The notes under the pieces were generated by a model. It saw nothing but the letters and a program-made list of their open reading frames with translations, ran no database searches and was not told where the DNA came from. Below, one piece after another: positions 14,535 through 29,342 of a stretch of 64,000 bases of DNA. Each line of letters begins with the position of its first letter. Position 1 is the first letter of the stretch. The stretch lies in assembly GCF_013184985.2 (NCBI RefSeq), contig NZ_CP063418.1:2356001-2420000 (forward strand), in the 5' to 3' direction. A program made the position numbers and the translations under genes. This DNA comes from Actinomyces faecalis. GTDB lineage: Bacteria; Actinomycetota; Actinomycetes; Actinomycetales; Actinomycetaceae.

Positions 14535-15731
14535 TCACGGACGAGCGCCGACCTTAAGCACCCCTTGGGTGACGAGCTGATGAGCTGCCTGCGCCACGAG
14601 CGCCCATGAATCGGGATGGTCACCCATCACCGACAGAACCCGGTCATGCGCCTGCGCGAGACTCATCGGCTCGTCAAGCGCCAGCCACACCGCAGCGCCT
14701 GGGCCGCCCAGGGTCACCGGCGTGCGGCCATAGAGCAAGATGACACTTCCCTCGGACTCCACGGCGTCATCCCAGCAGGCACGCCTCAGGACCTCGTCAG
14801 GGGCGAGGACAGGGCGGTTGCAGACGTCCAGCGAGCCGCCCTCCTGCGGTCCATCCGCCGGAGGGTGAGGAGCTGGAATATGCTTCCAGGGCACCGTATG
14901 GGCCTGGCTCTGTTGCGCGAGGGCCACAAGCATCTGCCCGCACGCAGCCTGGTCACTGAAACGCAGCAGCCACGGTCCTCCCGCCAAGGTCAGCGACCGG
15001 CTCAGCACCCGAAGGGGCTCATCCAGCTGGTAGACGGACGAGCTCTGGGCGACGGCCAGCTCCAGCGCCTGAGCGAGGGTGATCGGGACCAGCTCGTTTC
15101 CCTCAGCCACCCGCTCAGCCACGACAAGGGCAGCGAGGCGGCAGGCCGTGTCCGGACGGACGGGCGTCAGCCCGAGCTCCGCCGGCGCGTGATCGGCCTT
15201 GTGCCTAGCGAGGACGAGCGCTTTCTCCGGCTCCTCGTTGACGACGGACAACGGCTTGGGGTAGGAGATAACGCTCAGGTCCCCGGGACGGATCGCCAGG
15301 GTCTCATCCGTGACGTAGCCGAAGCCGTCGACCAGCCGCTTGCAGAACGTCGTCTTGCCCGTGCCCGAGGCGGCGATGATGCCGACGACGGCAAGCGGGA
15401 CGGCGCCCTCCTCCTCTGCGGGGACAGGCAGTGGCGCAAGCCCTGCCGCGTGGAACATCAGCAGCTCACCGGCGGCGTGACGGATGGCGTAGGCGGTCAG
15501 GTGCTGGGAGACGGTGTAGGTGTGGTCGAGGCCCAGATCACCTAGTACGAGGTCCTCCACGCCGGCCTCGTCAGAGCACCCGGGCGGGAGGAGACGAATA
15601 ACGTCCTGCGGGGCCTCGCCGTCGTCAGCCGCCAGGCAGTCCTGCCACACGTGCTCAAGACGGCGCACGGCAGCTGGAGGGACACGGCTGGTATCGACGC
15701 CTACGCGTCTGCCTAGCAGGAGGAGCTGCAC
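14535..15731 (-). CDS. HPr-kinase-like ATPase fused to a PqqD-like domain
   Basis: About 398 residues from the GTG at 15731. The N-terminal part (1-105) has a short LLLLGRRVGVDTS sheet and resembles HprK-related kinases. A P-loop GIIAASGTGKTT (about 117-128) and a YVTDETLAI segment (about 140-147) match the HprK C-terminal kinase fold. The last about 70 residues, with VTLGGPGAAVWLALDEP and LVTQGVLKVG, look like a PqqD/RiPP-recognition winged helix, so substrate binding and kinase appear fused. The start was chosen because the 23 codons between 15800 and 15732 are only about 43% GC at the third position in this frame, whereas another frame there is about 84%. Related kinases with PqqD and nucleotidyltransferase partners occur in lasso-peptide clusters and in uncharacterised HPr-rel systems. 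The partners here are at 19719-20860. Confidence 0.65.
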   Translation of the reverse strand: MQLLLLGRRVGVDTSRVPPAAVRRLEHVWQDCLAADDGEAPQDVIRLLPPGCSDEAGVEDLVLGDLGLDHTYTVSQHLTAYAIRHAAGELLMFHAAGLAPLPVPAEEEGAVPLAVVGIIAASGTGKTTFCKRLVDGFGYVTDETLAIRPGDLSVISYPKPLSVVNEEPEKALVLARHKADHAPAELGLTPVRPDTACRLAALVVAERVAEGNELVPITLAQALELAVAQSSSVYQLDEPLRVLSRSLTLAGGPWLLRFSDQAACGQMLVALAQQSQAHTVPWKHIPAPHPPADGPQEGGSLDVCNRPVLAPDEVLRRACWDDAVESEGSVILLYGRTPVTLGGPGAAVWLALDEPMSLAQAHDRVLSVMGDHPDSWALVAQAAHQLVTQGVLKVGARP

Positions 15732-15859
15732 AACATGGACCTGACATAGGGGAATAGGAACCAGTGGCGATGGTAGCGTGGCCGCACCCAGTTGAGCCAT
15801 TGCGCGCCCATCCGGGTGCCTCCCGGTGCACGCGCGAACCAGGAGGGGATCCACATCTC
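15713..15859 (-). CDS. Small aromatic-rich ORF overlapping the kinase-like gene start (candidate peptide)
   Basis: A 48- to 49-residue ORF starting at ATG 15859 (or 15853); longer forms from 15910 or 15913 would overlap the divergent LytR-family gene. It is strikingly rich in Trp, Tyr, Phe and Arg, with MWIPSWFARAPGG, QWLNWVRPRYHRHW and FLFPYV, and ends in CSSSC. By hand count 41 of 49 codons end in G or C, the pattern of real genes here, while the kinase frame over the same bases does not show it. Its stop overlaps the proposed kinase GTG by 19 bases, suggesting coupling. No family is recognised. It could be a peptide substrate of the kinase/PqqD protein, a small membrane-associated protein, or the true N-terminal piece of an unrecognised gene. 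Confidence 0.45.
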   Translation of the reverse strand, partial: EMWIPSWFARAPGGTRMGAQWLNWVRPRYHRHWFLFPYVRSMLCSSSC

Positions 15860-15898: not shown

Positions 15899-17167
15899 AT
15901 GGCGGGTCATCACTCCACGAACGCCAGCCAGTCACGCTCGGGCCGCAGCGGTCGGAGGTCCCGTCGCCGCGTTCCCACTGGACCGGCCGTGCCCGTGACC
16001 ACAAGCGAGGAGTACCTGGAGGGCCTTGACTCCGTGACGGATCTTTTTGAGGGGATGGCACCGGAGAAGATTGACGAGGAGCCTCCGCGACGGCGCCGGA
16101 GACGTAAGAAGGCAGCCTGGTACAAGCGGCACAAGGCCCTCACGGTGGTCCTGGTCCTGTTCCTCGTCATGACGGCAGGGCTCGCCGGAGGAGCATTGTG
16201 GCTCCGGAACGCCCTGGGGGAAATCGGCTCCCTTGGAGACCCATTCGCACAGCTGCCCTCCCGCGCCCCTTATGCCACCTCCACCGCGAGCAAGGATCCC
16301 GTGACCTTCCTCGTTCTCGGGTCCGACTCCCGAATTGACACCGCTGACCCAGCACAGTGGGAGGTCGGCGCCCAGCGCACAGACACCATCATGCTCGTAC
16401 AGATCGCCGGAGACCGTCGCAGCGTCAACGTCATGTCGATTCCGCGAGACTCCTGGGTCACCATCCCCGCCAACGAGGTTGTCAGCCACGAGTCACGAGC
16501 GAAGATCAATGCCGCCTACTCCTGGGGCGGCCCGACCCTGCTCATCCAGACCATTGAGAACAACACAGGGATCCACATCGATCACTTCGCCATCACCAAC
16601 TTCGAGTCGTTCAAGAAGCTGACTGACGATCTTGGCGGCGTCGAGATCGCCCTGACCCAGCCGTTGGACCTGCGAGGAATCCAGGACGCCGCCACCTCCA
16701 ACAACGTCCTTGAGCCAGGAACTCATACCCTCACGGGCGAGCAGGCGCTGATATACGCCCGTGAGCGCTACACGCTGCCCAACGGCGACTTTGACCGCAT
16801 CAAGCGGCAACAGAACTGGATGCGAGCCATGCTCAAAGCGACGATCAGCAAGAACACTTTGACCAACCCGTCCAAGCTGGCCAGCCTCGTGTCCACCATC
16901 AAGGACACGATGGCCACTGACAAGGCCCTGACGGCCTCACAGATCACGTCATTGGCAGCCTCGCTCAAGGACGTCCGTGCCGATGACGTCAGCTTCTTCC
17001 AGGCGCCAGTAACAGGAACGAGCATGTCAGAGGACGGCCAGTCGATCGTGCTCCTGGACCTTCCGGCCCTGGCCGAGGTTGCGCAGGCCTTCCAGGAGGA
17101 TGTGCTGACGGACTACGTCGCGAAGAACGCTGACAGGCTCAACATGCTCGGGGCCTCAGTGAGCTAG
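15899..17167 (+). CDS. LytR-CpsA-Psr family glycopolymer transferase
   Basis: A 422-residue type II membrane protein. A cytoplasmic, Arg-rich N-terminus (RRRRRRKK at about 63-70) precedes one transmembrane helix (about 80-100). The LCP domain follows, with FLVLGSDSRI, RTDTIMLVQI, VNVMSIPRDSWVTIP, KINAAYSWGGP and the YARERYTLPNGDFDRIKRQQ block that holds the phosphate-binding arginines. LCP enzymes attach undecaprenyl-linked glycopolymers to peptidoglycan or proteins. The start is the ATG at 15899 with an AAGG site; the longer frame from 15764 is rejected as it runs through the small opposite-strand ORF. It is divergent from the HprK-like gene and convergent with the BY-kinase gene. It is the likely wall-attachment step for the polysaccharide made by this locus. 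Confidence 0.93.
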   Translation: MAGHHSTNASQSRSGRSGRRSRRRVPTGPAVPVTTSEEYLEGLDSVTDLFEGMAPEKIDEEPPRRRRRRKKAAWYKRHKALTVVLVLFLVMTAGLAGGALWLRNALGEIGSLGDPFAQLPSRAPYATSTASKDPVTFLVLGSDSRIDTADPAQWEVGAQRTDTIMLVQIAGDRRSVNVMSIPRDSWVTIPANEVVSHESRAKINAAYSWGGPTLLIQTIENNTGIHIDHFAITNFESFKKLTDDLGGVEIALTQPLDLRGIQDAATSNNVLEPGTHTLTGEQALIYARERYTLPNGDFDRIKRQQNWMRAMLKATISKNTLTNPSKLASLVSTIKDTMATDKALTASQITSLAASLKDVRADDVSFFQAPVTGTSMSEDGQSIVLLDLPALAEVAQAFQEDVLTDYVAKNADRLNMLGASVS

Positions 17168-17295: not shown

Positions 17296-19002
17296 TTACT
17301 GGTTCCGCAAGCTACGTCGCGTGGGTCGGTTGGGGGCATCGGCGGAAACCCACTGCGTCACCGGGACCTGGGGAGGCAGAGCATCCTCGGCCTCGTCAGC
17401 CTGAGCAGGGTGGGCAGCGTGACGACGCGAGGCCCGGCGGGCGGAAGAGTCCGGCTCAGCCGCACCGTCAGGGACGGACAGCGGTGCGCTAGGAAGATCC
17501 GTCTGCTCCTCCACCACCATCTCGCCGAACCCTGCGCTGCGACGCTTCTTTCGTCGTGGGAAGATCCCGAGAATCTTGCCCTTGTCACTGCCGTAGTAGT
17601 AGTAACTGTGGCCGTAGTTGCCGTAGCCGTAGCCGTAGTAGGCACTGCCGATCTGCCGCTTTGATGCGCGGTTGAGCACGACGCCAAGCAACCGGGCATC
17701 GACCTGCCTCAGCACCTTGGCACACAGTCCCGCCTGCTCCTTGTACGTCCCCCCAACCTCCATGACGACGATGGCCCCGTCAGCCAGGCCCGCCAGGAGC
17801 CCCGAGTCGGTCACGGGAAGGAGCGGTGGAGCATCGAGGATGACGATCGCCTCCTCTGACAACCGGTCAAGGAGCGCCTTCATTCGCTGGGAACCCAGGA
17901 GCTCGGAGGGGTTAGGTGGGATACGCCCTGCTGTGATAACGCGCAGATGAGGCTGGTCAGGCACCTTCTGCGCCACCTGTGAGATCTGCATGTCCCCCGC
18001 CAGAACCTGAGTCAGGCCGACAGACCCATCAAGGTCAAAGATCTTGTGGACCACGGGCTTGCGCAGGTCACAGTCCACCAAGATAGTGCGTTGCCCTGAT
18101 GCCGCTAGCATCTGCGCGAGCACCGCGGAGACGGTGGACTTACCCTCTCCCGGATTGGCCGAGGTCATCACAATGGCCCGAGGAGGATTGTCAACGTCAA
18201 GGAAACGGAGGTTGGTGCGCAGGTGACGCAGCGCCTCAGCCGCCTCACCCAGACCATCAACGTGCCGACGCCCGTCCTTGTTGAGCTCATTCGATCGAGG
18301 CACGACCGCCAGCACCGAGGCCCCAGTGAGTTCCTCGACGTCAGAGTTGTGACGAACCCGGTTATCCAGGGCGCGCTTGAGGAAAGCGATCATGTACCCC
18401 AGGATGAGCCCGCCAAGCGCCCCTGCGAGCGTAATCTTGGGGATGTTCGGGTACACCGGAGCACCAGGCACGGTGGCCTCAGCAAGAGCCACGATCTGAG
18501 TCTGCGTGGTCTGGTCGGTGACCGGGGCCATCGGTACGGCCTCCCCGGGAGCCTGCTCGGACGACTCACCGGAAGGCTCCGGCACAGAGAGAGACTCAAG
18601 CCTCGTGACCTCCGCGCCCAGCGCGGACACGGAGGCGTTCGCAATATCACGGGCACGCACAGCATCATTCGACGTGGCAGTAATCGTGATGATCGGAGAG
18701 GACGACTGCACAGCCCCTCTCAAGGAGCCCCCCAGACCGGTGACGCCGAGGTTCTTCGCCGTGGCCTCGGCAACTGACTGCGACCCCACGAGCGAGGCGA
18801 ATGAGGCAGCCTTCTGCTGGGCGACAGAGTTCGCCGTAAAGGCGTCCGTACCCGCGACAACAACCAACGCGCTCGTTGTCGCCTCATAGGTGCGCAGCTG
18901 CACCTGGGCGTATCCGAAGCCGAGAGCGCCACCGAGTACGGTGCACACGACGATGAGGAGCGCGTTGACTCGAGTCAGACGCATGAAGTCCTGGATTGTC
19001 AC
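17296..19002 (-). CDS. Polysaccharide co-polymerase with BY-kinase domain (Wzz/CpsCD fusion)
   Basis: 568 residues. The N-terminal chain-length-regulator part has two transmembrane helices (about 13-33 and 190-209) enclosing an extracellular coiled region. The bacterial tyrosine kinase domain has Walker A SANPGEGKST (281-290), Walker A' ILVDCDLRKP (307-316) and a Walker B VILDAPPLL (387-395). A tyrosine cluster at about 455-470 contains nine Tyr in 16 residues and is the expected autophosphorylation tail. An Arg/Ala-rich tail of about 90 residues follows. It should control length and timing of capsule polymerisation together with the Wzy-like polymerase (40213-41511). The cognate phosphatase lies 62 bases upstream in the same operon. 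A 21-bp hairpin terminates it. Confidence 0.93.
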   Translation of the reverse strand: MTIQDFMRLTRVNALLIVVCTVLGGALGFGYAQVQLRTYEATTSALVVVAGTDAFTANSVAQQKAASFASLVGSQSVAEATAKNLGVTGLGGSLRGAVQSSSPIITITATSNDAVRARDIANASVSALGAEVTRLESLSVPEPSGESSEQAPGEAVPMAPVTDQTTQTQIVALAEATVPGAPVYPNIPKITLAGALGGLILGYMIAFLKRALDNRVRHNSDVEELTGASVLAVVPRSNELNKDGRRHVDGLGEAAEALRHLRTNLRFLDVDNPPRAIVMTSANPGEGKSTVSAVLAQMLAASGQRTILVDCDLRKPVVHKIFDLDGSVGLTQVLAGDMQISQVAQKVPDQPHLRVITAGRIPPNPSELLGSQRMKALLDRLSEEAIVILDAPPLLPVTDSGLLAGLADGAIVVMEVGGTYKEQAGLCAKVLRQVDARLLGVVLNRASKRQIGSAYYGYGYGNYGHSYYYYGSDKGKILGIFPRRKKRRSAGFGEMVVEEQTDLPSAPLSVPDGAAEPDSSARRASRRHAAHPAQADEAEDALPPQVPVTQWVSADAPNRPTRRSLRNQ

Positions 19003-19064: not shown

Positions 19065-19718
19065 TTAGCAAGCAGCGTGACGCACAGACCTGAGAAAACT
19101 GATGAGTGTGCCCACACATACGTCAATGTGGGCGGCCGCCTTGTCAGCCACGTCCGAAGACTGTCGATAGGGGTCCGGGACGTCATGGCGGCGGGAGGCG
19201 ATCGGGACACGCGCACGTAGCACGTCAACCATTCCTGCACCGAGCTCAAGCCGCTCGACGGAATCCGACGCCAGTCGCGCGGCCGCGACAATCTGGTGGC
19301 ACGTGAAAAGACGTGGGTGCGCCCCGGGCTCCAGGTCAAGGACCGCGTCACGCTGCTGCTTGGTCATCGTCACGATGATGGACGACTGCGCCAGGAGCTC
19401 AGCGCTGACCGGCTGCGAACGATGGGAGTCGCACCACGACGCCGGCACACCCCGCCGCTGCGCCTGGGAGCTCATCTGCGGGTCTATCGCACGTCCCCGC
19501 GTGCCTGGCACCCCAGCGCTCATAACGGCCCAGGGCGTCCCTGACCCCAGGAGGTGTCGGGTAAGCAGCTCTGCGTAAGGGCTGCGGGAGATGTTCGCGG
19601 TGCACACGAAAAGGATCTGGGCACCCAGGCCCCCCATCGGCGGCGGGGCCACTACACCCTGATCCTCAGTGTCAAACAGTCTCCCGACACCGAAATCATC
19701 CAGGCTGCGGTGTCTCAT
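19065..19718 (-). CDS. Low-molecular-weight protein-tyrosine phosphatase (Wzb/CpsB type)
   Basis: The P-loop is CTANISRS in ILFVCTANISRSPYAELL (about residues 39-46): the Cys, Arg and Ser of CX5RS are present, but the usual Gly after position two is Ala. The general-acid motif is DVPDPY near residue 178. The rest matches LMW phosphatases. It should dephosphorylate the BY-kinase encoded 62 bases downstream. The ATG at 19718 follows directly on the TAG of the PqqD gene, so the genes are co-transcribed. The first about 33 residues are extra; a start at the Met of MGGLGAQ (codon 28) is equally possible. Confidence 0.88.
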   Translation of the reverse strand: MRHRSLDDFGVGRLFDTEDQGVVAPPPMGGLGAQILFVCTANISRSPYAELLTRHLLGSGTPWAVMSAGVPGTRGRAIDPQMSSQAQRRGVPASWCDSHRSQPVSAELLAQSSIIVTMTKQQRDAVLDLEPGAHPRLFTCHQIVAAARLASDSVERLELGAGMVDVLRARVPIASRRHDVPDPYRQSSDVADKAAAHIDVCVGTLISFLRSVRHAAC

Positions 19719-19997
19719 CTACACAACCTCCAGATAGCCATCCCCGATGAGCTGCGCCAGAAACTCACTGACATCACCCTGGATCTGCTCGGCAGGAATA
19801 CCTACCTTCTCCGAGACACGGAGGGTCACCTCCATGGCATCACCCGGACGCGGCTGGCCTACCGCCGCCTGCCAGATCAGTGCCGCAGATCCTTCCAGGA
19901 CAACCGGTGAGCCGTCAGGGACGTGAGCCACGTAGACAACGGGTTCCGGCCCGCAGTCCTCAATGTGGGCCACGCGCCGGCAGGGCACGTAGGTCAT
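19719..19997 (-). CDS. PqqD family protein
   Basis: A 92-residue protein of the PqqD winged-helix type. The pattern of a β-hairpin with VVYVAHVPDGSPVVLEGSAA, then LIWQAAVGQ, then a helix and DVSEFLAQLIGDGYLEVV at the end fits the family (the long-tailed 'late-domain, LxxxGxL' C-terminus). PqqD domains bind leader peptides of ribosomal natural products, or serve as chaperones of uncharacterised HPr-rel systems. It overlaps the upstream nucleotidyltransferase gene by ATGA and abuts the phosphatase gene. Together with the PqqD-like tail of the HprK-like protein it is the second such domain in the locus, although no radical SAM or lasso cyclase is present. Confidence 0.8.
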   Translation of the reverse strand: MTYVPCRRVAHIEDCGPEPVVYVAHVPDGSPVVLEGSAALIWQAAVGQPRPGDAMEVTLRVSEKVGIPAEQIQGDVSEFLAQLIGDGYLEVV

Positions 19998-20860
19998 CGC
20001 CCGGCCCTCCTCATCTCACGAAGGGCCTGTGCGATCCTCGCGAAGAACTCCCGGATGATCTCGCCCCGTGTTGGGCGCCGTGCGAGCCGGAGAGCCAGGT
20101 GGTCCGTGTTCACCAGGAGGGCCCTCACGAGCAGACGGAGCCTTGCCCTCTTACTGGGGGCAGCCTTCAGCCGAGCCTCCCACTCAGCGAGGCGGGAGTG
20201 GTCACCGCCAGAGAACACCGCCCAGAGATCATGGCTTGGGTCATTGGCGTACTGATCAAGATGCCCAAGAGCGGCTGCCAGTCCCACCCGGGCCCCGAGG
20301 CGGTCCGCCAGGCCGGTGAGCTCCCGGCGTCCCTCCGCATCCAGCTCCTCCCACGCACGCTGGTAGTCTGCGTCCTCAGTCCGGCCGTTGCGCGCCACGT
20401 GGAGCAGCAGAATGAGCCGTTGCGCGGTCAACGACGGCGTCGGGCAGGGCACGCCCGCGATCTCCATCATTCTGTGGTCCTCCCACAGGGCGTCGAAGGC
20501 GTCAGCCGCCGTCAGCCCGGGGAACAGACGGTGGACGTCAGCGTAGCCCCACGAAGGGTGGAAGTATGTGGCCGCGTGCTCAAAGGCGGAGCCGGACTCG
20601 AACGAGGTCACTGCCGTCCAGCCGTGCTCAACAAGGCCCCGGACATAGGCCTCGATCTGGGAGGGACGTACCAGCACGTCCGCGTCCGTCGACCGGATAC
20701 GCGACCGGCCTAGTCCCGGGTCAACCGCAGGGCCTTTGATGTGAAGTACCCGAGAGTGCGTCTCCTCCCCGACCACCTGAAGCGCAGCATGGGCGAGGTG
20801 AACTCGCATAGCTATCGGTATCGCTATAGGCTTGGTATCAGGAGCTGGAGTCTCATCCAC
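19994..20860 (-). CDS. Nucleotidyltransferase family protein (NTP_transf_5)
   Basis: A 288-residue protein with the family's LHIKGPAVDP block (about residues 43-52), followed by STDADVLVRP, the hG/S-x-D-x-D-type metal site, and a long helical C-terminus. The start IPIAMRVHLAHAALQVV is also typical. Members of this uncharacterised nucleotidyltransferase family are found with PqqD and HprK-like kinases in some lasso-peptide clusters and in polysaccharide loci. It heads the leftward operon NTase-PqqD-phosphatase-BY kinase, and the next gene overlaps by ATGA. The 119-base gap before the rightward glycosyltransferase gene should hold divergent promoters. Confidence 0.8.
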   Translation of the reverse strand: MDETPAPDTKPIAIPIAMRVHLAHAALQVVGEETHSRVLHIKGPAVDPGLGRSRIRSTDADVLVRPSQIEAYVRGLVEHGWTAVTSFESGSAFEHAATYFHPSWGYADVHRLFPGLTAADAFDALWEDHRMMEIAGVPCPTPSLTAQRLILLLHVARNGRTEDADYQRAWEELDAEGRRELTGLADRLGARVGLAAALGHLDQYANDPSHDLWAVFSGGDHSRLAEWEARLKAAPSKRARLRLLVRALLVNTDHLALRLARRPTRGEIIREFFARIAQALREMRRAGR

Positions 20861-27405: not shown

Positions 27406-27719
27406 AGGATTTGGTCAGATGATTAATGAGTTCACATGCTCTTCAAGGTCGTGAACGCAGGCCGGTAGTGGTGGCGGGTTGGTCATGGCAGGGCGAGGTC
27501 CCTTCATGATGGAAGTTCTCACGCTCTCCATCCAACAGACCCCGGTACGCCCAATGTAGCTGTGCGACTGCTGATCTGACCATGTTCTGCCTGTTGGAGT
27601 ACCTCGCACTGAGGATCATTGATCAGCGTCTCAGCCTTGAGGGGCGAGCCTGATGTGTTGCTGGGTCAAGTCTGCTGAGTGGTGACATTGCTGTGGTTGT
27701 CATAGCCAGCCGCGCGACA
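27406..27719. other. Degraded intergenic stretch between flippase gene and IS remnant
   Basis: No gene supported. It may contain the decayed 5' part of the ISL3 transposase and the promoter of the leftward flippase operon; no terminal inverted repeat could be identified by eye. Confidence 0.4.
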
Positions 27720-28430
27720 CGGTAGTGCGCGAACTGGCGCATGTGCCAGTGGGGTGGAGCTTCTCATACTATTTTGCGTGTCCGGCTGCGTCGTCACCAC
27801 TGCCAGGAGCACCGGCCGTGTCTGACGGGAGGACCTCACTCAAACAACGGATCGCCGATGCACTGGCGTGGCTTGGAAAACCGCGAAGGACACCGTCCTA
27901 GCTGAGGGCATGTACGTCCTTACTCACCAGCCCGGCCGCCTGGAGGGTGTACGGAGCATCAGAGCTGACGAGCACATGTGGCGCCACATACCGCGGGGAC
28001 AAGACGTCACCATCACCTTATCTCTGTCTCCACGCGCACCAGACCGAGTCTCTTGTTGGTGATGATCAAAGGACCTTCGAAGCATGCCTTCAAGACCCGG
28101 CTGACCGAGCAACCCCGGACCTACCTCGCGCAGTGGTACCAGGATCACCTCTATTCTCTCCCCACCAGCGCCGGTTTACTCACCGACAAGCAACAACAAC
28201 GTCTTGGGGAGCGGTTCGCTGGCTGTCACCTCATCAAGGTCGAGGCTACCTCGGGTGTCTATCAGACCAGGATGATGGCCTACCACGACAGTAGCCGGCC
28301 GAGGGCGAAGGCCATGACCAGTCTGGTCAAATCGATCAGCTCAAGGAGCCCCACCGCCCTGGTCGAGGTCACCAACCTCAGAGGCGTTTCACCGCACGCG
28401 CCAACGACATCCTGCGTTCTTTGACTCTAC
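27720..28430 (+). pseudogene. ISL3-family transposase remnant
   Basis: Blocks of an ISL3 transposase appear in order but in different frames. VRELAHVPVGW lies near 27725 (end of the zinc-binding N-terminus). KTAKDTVLAEGMYVLTHQP (about 27874-27930) is followed by IRADEHMWRHIPRG, the region of the first catalytic Asp. Then come GPSKHAFKTRLTEQP and, after an apparent internal deletion, SAGLLTDKQQQRLGERF, VEATSGVYQTRMMAYHD and a frame-shifted FTARANDIL-like end. At least two frameshifts and the missing centre make it inactive. It marks an insertion event inside the polysaccharide locus. Coordinates are approximate; intact terminal repeats were not found. Confidence 0.75.
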
Positions 28431-28849
28431 CAACTCGACCCACGTGCCAGGGAGATGCTTAAACTCGACACTGTGCGCTTCGTCTCCCTATAGAGACAGG
28501 AGCAGCTCAGTCACCGTCCGAGACTGACCGCTAGTGCTCGGTCAATGTCAGGGGCACGCGACATGCAGCCCAGACTGCGCTGGGGAGATGCACCCCTGTC
28601 TTCCCCTCTTCCAGGGCCGTGTACGGGGAGGGGAGAGGATCTACAGCTGTGCTGAGCATGAGGAGCAGGCTGGCCGGTGTACAGCAAGGCGCTTCCCCGT
28701 ACCTCACACGCGAGCACCCCCTGGCTCGGACCGGCGTCGACGGTAAGACCAGGTAGAGGACGAACGGTTCCTGATCCTAAGATGGGGACGATCGGCTCCT
28801 GACCGCGATGATGACAGACCGAAATTCCTCTGACGGTCATCAGACCGGA
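28431..28849. other. Degraded stretch between two pseudogenes
   Basis: No supported coding sequence. Short ORFs on both strands show no family resemblance. It probably holds decayed insertion-element or sugar-gene DNA. Confidence 0.4.
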
Positions 28850-29245
28850 AAGTATCATCGGTTCCGGGCAGGGGGTTCACAAGCCTGCACCAACATCTTG
28901 GCCATATCTCTAGCCCACCTACGTGAGGGACGCAGTTTGACGATCTATGGAGACGGCTTAGCCGCCCGTAATTCTATGCACGCCTCTGCCCCTGCACACC
29001 TCATTGTCTGGACAGCGGGCAACCCGCCAGTTCCTGTGCACCCCGGTATCCTCAATTGCAAAACCGGAGTGCACACCACGCTCACGAAACTCGCACAAGC
29101 AGCCGCAGCAGGCAGTCCCCAGGGACAGGTCTCGCGGGAATACGTCGTTGTATACACGCACCGGAAACGTCGATCACGCCTGTGCCAACATGACACTGTC
29201 CGCCCAACCAGGCGCCCCGATCTCAATGGGATAGCGATGATGCCA
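28850..29245 (+). pseudogene. NAD-dependent sugar epimerase/dehydratase remnant
   Basis: The translation has ILAISLAHLREGRSLTIYGDG followed by AARNSMHA, the equivalent of the conserved IYGDGxQxRDFxxV block of GalE/RmlB-like enzymes. Then come AGNPPVPV, GVHTTLTKLAQAAAAGS (the 'GTGxxTSLNELAxAL' block) and, in another frame, TGNVDHACANMT (the 'GDxRHSxADxT' block). The NAD-binding N-terminus is absent and the frame is broken, so this is the 3' third of a dead gene. A separate short open frame (29194-29346, ending ALNELAAYEMTT) overlaps the next gene's ATG and may be the last trace of another lost gene. Confidence 0.6.
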
Positions 29246-29342
29246 TCGCTGACTTCATCCACGCCTCGTGTGGCAAGCCGGAGACTTCCTCCGACACGTG
29301 GGACAAGGCCCTGAACGAGCTCGCAGCCTATGAGATGACCAC

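Follow-up and report, generated by a model that had tools for sequence, protein, structure and literature searches.

A 49-codon open frame across the start of an HprK-like kinase gene in Actinomyces faecalis is very probably a chance frame over the kinase promoter and leader

The window, a stretch of 64,000 nucleotides from contig NZ_CP063418.1 of Actinomyces faecalis, holds a PEPCK/HprK-like kinase gene that is divergent from a lytR gene. The gene for the kinase lies in a capsule/exopolysaccharide cluster. The features that matter here are as follows:

14535..15731, minus strand: PEPCK/HprK-like kinase with a C-terminal PqqD-like (RRE) domain, supported by homologue N-termini, structure model and Foldseek
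15859-15713, minus strand: small open frame with stop codon TAG at 15715-15713, interpreted here as a chance frame
15732..15763, minus strand: 5' leader predicted for the kinase mRNA, which contains a weak Shine-Dalgarno-like CAGG, placed from the hexamer position
15767..15781, minus strand: conserved element CCACGCTACCATCGC with the putative -10 hexamer TACCAT (15775-15770), present in all four kinase-bearing genomes of the genus
15899..17167, plus strand: divergent LytR-CpsA-Psr glycopolymer transferase, starting at ATG 15899
17296..19002, minus strand: Wzz/BY-kinase-like chain-length regulator (CbiA-type domain; Wzz match just below the cutoff)
19065..19718, minus strand: low-molecular-weight protein tyrosine phosphatase (PF01451, E 9.3e-17)
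19719..19997, minus strand: stand-alone PqqD-like protein (PF05402, E 5.7e-8)
19994..20860, minus strand: NTP_transf_5 nucleotidyltransferase (PF14907, E 6.6e-9)

The cluster also encodes glycosyltransferases, NeuB, a cytidylyltransferase and a bacterial sugar transferase. Within the genus, the kinase is found in 4 of 49 genomes (the window genome, G018, G016 and G002), and NTP_transf_5 occurs in the same four; across the wider family, the kinase was found in 13 genomes out of 213. In all four genus genomes the kinase is divergent from lytR, and the order kinase, lytR, Wzz, phosphatase, PqqD and NTP_transf_5 is identical. Further along the window, a gap of about 1.9 kb (27406-29342), flanked by genes for an ABC transporter and a glycosyltransferase, contains no open reading frame of at least 180 codons. 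This gap may hold decayed genes, as a 36-residue piece (27901-28017) resembles a stretch of the relative locus L035 (E 0.002).

The original prediction placed the kinase start at GTG 15731, downstream of the start of the longest open frame. Of the 18 proteins returned by a homologue search, 14 were aligned with the kinase of the window, and 11 of the 14 begin at exactly the matching residue, with N-termini such as MQLLLLG, MLLLLLG and MHLLLLG; of the remaining three, two are longer by three or five residues and the other is missing its N-terminus. In the database copy of the window kinase (P0002, 377 aa), the start is placed 21 codons further downstream than the homologue-supported one. In the structure model (mean pLDDT 89.6), residues 1-10 reach a pLDDT of 95, and strands are predicted at residues 2-5 and 8-13. 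GTG 15731 is thus well supported as the kinase start by both alignment and model, and we regard this point as established. It is true that the kinase frame stays open past 16061, and a longer protein that starts at 15800 or further upstream could be the real one. However, the 23-codon extension is found in none of the 14 aligned homologues, so that the N-terminus from 15800 is not conserved, and in the nearest relative, G018, only nine open codons precede the GTG in the kinase frame. On these two grounds the extension was rejected, and the longer form is extremely improbable.

The fold group of the kinase is supported by the model. Foldseek matched it to PEPCK with an E-value of 1.2e-4, at a TM-score by query of just 0.39, and more weakly to HprK (1knx, E 0.02). 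The kinase had also been described as fused to a PqqD-like domain. This holds in the structure model, whose C-terminal part is similar to PqqD (E 0.24) and to TbiB1, a lasso RRE protein (E 0.03, with a TM-score by target length of 0.72); at the level of Pfam, the PqqD domain was detected in 4 of 15 aligned members and not in the window copy. The best NCBIfam match, in the P-loop region, was HprK_rel_A (TIGR04352), with 17.8-18.2 bits against a curated cutoff of 200 bits.

The small frame had been proposed as a real gene for an aromatic-rich peptide because of its codon composition. On the minus strand (15859-15713) it translates to EMWIPSWFARAPGGTRMGAQWLNWVRPRYHRHWFLFPYVRSMLCSSSC, a peptide ending in CSSSC, and ATG 15862, ATG 15856 and GTG 15913 are in-frame start codons. 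The counts on which the proposal was built are exact: 41 of 49 codons of the small frame end in G or C, compared with 10 of the 23 codons that the kinase frame has between 15800 and 15732. This content is unusual and counts against reading the frame as a product of chance, since only 3 of 5000 stop-free mononucleotide shuffles had G or C at the third position of at least 40 of 48 codons. In 20,000 dinucleotide shuffles, 0.06% had any of the six frames open with third-position GC this high. The openness of the frame, on the other hand, is expected, since at least one of the six frames was open in 94% of these shuffles. Among real non-coding frames the third-position count is not unusual either, since 158 of the 1046 open segments read from window genes in a wrong frame reach it.

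The other two codon positions tell a different story. Over 48 codons, the small frame has G or C at 23 first and 29 second positions, whereas a reference set of 614 overlapping 48-codon segments from 14 window genes averages 32.7, 23.6 and 37.4 at positions 1, 2 and 3, respectively. An excess of second- over first-position GC, as in the small frame, was seen in just 22 of the 614 segments. Scored on whole codons, the small frame reached a log-odds of -0.211 bits per codon, at the level of stop-free shuffles (mean -0.227) and below genes (mean +0.217). A caveat applies here, because 31 of the 614 true gene segments score as low. Synonymous codon choice alone gave -0.002 for the small frame and a mean of 0.087 for genes; 151 of the 614 gene segments scored as low or lower, and 569 of 5000 shuffles reached the score of the small frame. 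Taken together, the composition of the small frame is not that of a gene, as neither codon usage nor codon-position GC is gene-like, although gene segments with equally low scores mean that the score is no proof.

We then looked at the small frame in relatives. A protein search with the small peptide found no candidate that shared enough words. When 59 genomes were searched, 37 gave some match at an E-value of up to 10, but only the window's own copy was significant, and the next best match (E 0.010) lay at another place. For the kinase, a single-protein search of contigs returned nothing, and an alignment-based search yielded 80 loci, the best of 212 relatives. Up to 400 bases upstream of the kinase on the same strand, among 91 kinase loci that include some duplicates, the sole match to the peptide was the broken copy of G018, which is represented twice (L035 and L038). 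Against L035, the small frame gave an E-value of 5e-6 with two stops, and the opposite strand was equally good (E 9e-6, one stop).

None of the three other kinase-bearing genomes of the genus has kept the frame. In G018 the gap DNA can be aligned, and the copy of the small frame is broken by three stops and by a deletion of 2 bases. At +16 the frame's own stop is retained, which gives CSFFC-stop, and the first start codon of this frame comes only 2 bases ahead of the kinase start; in BLASTP, the last 12 residues alone match the small peptide, and these overlap the first kinase codons. In the same register, G016 carries an open frame of 67 codons that includes a start codon, but the sequence is unlike that of the small peptide (best BLASTP match, 5 residues). 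In G002, the register holds 10 open codons and no start codon. Coding DNA is expected to change most at codon position 3. Between the window and G018, differences at codon positions 1, 2 and 3 amounted to 11/48, 18/47 and 9/47, and to 11/37, 16/36 and 9/35 when the kinase overlap and the conserved element were excluded. Since third positions changed least, substitutions are not concentrated there, and the small frame does not behave like coding DNA.

The loss of the frame in relatives is therefore established, and it is precisely what the original prediction had named as grounds for giving up the small gene: genus genomes, protein search and kinase loci all agree on this. With a codon score at shuffle level in addition, the claim that the small frame is a real gene is not supported. 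A recently arisen, lineage-specific small gene that overlaps the kinase start by 19 bases, perhaps for translational coupling or as a substrate, could account for the third-position count that shuffles seldom reach, for the geometry of the overlap at the kinase GTG and for a synonymous codon choice not unlike that of genes. A recent peptide is also conceivable because the nearest relative with DNA compared has a kinase only 64% identical (at the protein level, homologues P0003 and P0004 are 68% identical). Yet no homologue was found in the 59 genomes, the protein search or the 91 kinase loci, the whole-codon score and the excess of GC at position 2 over position 1 are against it, and the CSSSC tail is a by-product of kinase codons. 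Read in the +1 frame, the kinase codons for QLLLLG (GTG-CAG-CTC-CTC-CTG-CTA-GG) simply give CSSSC-stop. In addition, a promoter-like element lies inside the small frame, which would put the start of the small gene upstream of the predicted start of the kinase mRNA. We consider such a gene very unlikely.

This element was the only conserved block when the divergent gap was aligned across the four genomes (YCACGSTAYCATCRC, 15781-15767), and its conservation in all four is a plain result of the alignment. A TAYCAT hexamer within it (TACCAT or TATCAT) is found 36-41 bases upstream of the kinase GTG in each genome. The core of the element appeared in only 10, 3 and 11 of 20,000 shuffles of the 150 bases upstream in the three relatives. 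In the window genome there is a single site for the full pattern, and likewise for a shorter one; among the 49 genus genomes the full pattern occurs in ten, with one site each, of which four are the kinase-bearing genomes, so that 6 of the 45 genomes without the kinase have it once. A composition-free estimate predicts roughly four or five sites across 49 genomes, and a control with the reversed pattern gave no site in them. None of seven window proteins was matched in 4-kb stretches around the six other sites. More distant kinases lack the core upstream, as only 5 of 91 loci have it, all of them from G018, G016 and G002.

Judged by sequence, the conserved element is best read as the -10 region of a promoter. 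A strict scan for two-hexamer sigma-70 promoters found none, and no clear -35 was seen; a SigA-type TAnnnT hexamer at a conserved distance from the start codon is present in all four kinase-bearing genomes. According to PMC3890552, a TAnnnT -10 motif precedes about 97% of mapped transcription starts in C. glutamicum. If the hexamer is the -10 box, transcription most likely starts near 15763, and the kinase mRNA would begin downstream of all three small-frame start codons (15913, 15862 and 15856). A structured RNA in the gap was considered as well, and the lone Rfam match (bxd_2, E 0.77, 14.7 bits against a gathering score of 80) was judged to be due to chance.

The element could also be a transcription-factor operator, or the core of a bidirectional promoter for lytR and the kinase. 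In the form ANNNTANNNT, TANNNT can be read on both strands, and this applies to all four genomes; moreover, the 15 conserved bases exceed the needs of a -10 hexamer. The two predicted starts would lie 23 bases apart, inside the range of 7-25 that defines bidirectional promoters in PMC10268837, although the most frequent spacing given there is 18 bases, and a lytR leader from the element would be about 113 bases long. We hold this second role to be possible but rather doubtful, and that the element serves lytR too is speculation. Either role is compatible with the element acting as the kinase promoter.

Our preferred explanation, which we consider very probable, is that the 49-codon frame is a chance open frame over the kinase promoter and 5' leader. 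A frame that is open by chance in GC-rich DNA would cross this region in the divergent gap between lytR on the plus strand and the kinase on the minus strand. RNA polymerase would use the element at 15781-15767 with the -10 hexamer TACCAT (15775-15770), the kinase mRNA would start near 15763, and translation would begin at GTG 15731. The case illustrates that a striking third-position GC count can mislead, contradicted as it is here by codon positions 1 and 2 and by the relatives. A fixed kinase start and the location of a likely promoter are needed for any test of this capsule-linked kinase.

The original prediction further raised, as inference only, the idea that the small peptide might be a substrate of the kinase. 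The HprK-related system for which the TIGR04352 family is named has PqqD-like and nucleotidyltransferase partners. Described lasso kinases phosphorylate a C-terminal Ser, and similar kinases occur together with a nucleotidyltransferase in lasso clusters, as reported in PMC8498205 and PMC9266682. The proposed peptide, ending in CSSSC, has Cys at its C-terminus and no C-terminal Ser. With no conservation and no codon signal, it was rejected as a substrate. Other small open reading frames were also assessed. In the region of 13-43 kb, 91 stop-to-stop frames that span 25 codons or more and lie mostly outside the listed genes were searched against three relative loci, each 19.9 kb long, with E-values of up to 0.1 accepted. 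Every match below E 0.001 lies next to gdh, the kinase or lytR, the strongest of the others was the piece at 27901-28017 (E 0.002), and no convincing conserved substrate candidate was found among these 91 frames. Pfam recognized no lasso cyclase or leader peptidase among 25 scanned gene products between 14.5 and 49 kb, three of which are without a family. Our literature search found no paper on an HprK-related kinase with PqqD, or on an HPr kinase with PqqD and exopolysaccharide. A peptide substrate for the trio of kinase, PqqD-like protein and nucleotidyltransferase is a possible and fair idea, though the substrate is probably not the 49-codon peptide. One version of it is that the trio performs RiPP-like tailoring within capsule assembly, with Ser phosphorylation and the addition of a sugar to the phosphate on the tail of a ribosomal peptide or protein other than the small frame's product; we consider this version unlikely.

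The predicted promoter can be compared with the TAnnnT -10 promoters described for C. glutamicum in PMC3890552. The likeness lies in the TACCAT or TATCAT hexamer located 36-41 bases before the kinase start. They differ in that starts were mapped in C. glutamicum, whereas the start proposed here is predicted, and in that the bases flanking the hexamer are unusually conserved. Among known kinases, the best NCBIfam match is to HprK-related kinase A (TIGR04352), but it is far below the cutoff, and the window kinase has a fused C-terminal PqqD-like domain. With respect to its partners, the locus resembles the tailoring of paeninodin-type lasso peptides, where, as here, a PqqD-like/RRE protein and a nucleotidyltransferase accompany an HprK-like kinase (PadeK; PsmK and PsmN for pseudomycoidin). 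PsmK and PsmN are reported to phosphorylate a Ser and to add a sugar to the phosphate. Unlike in the paeninodin-type systems, no precursor is supported here and the proposed peptide ends in Cys, and the trio is located in a capsule/exopolysaccharide cluster.
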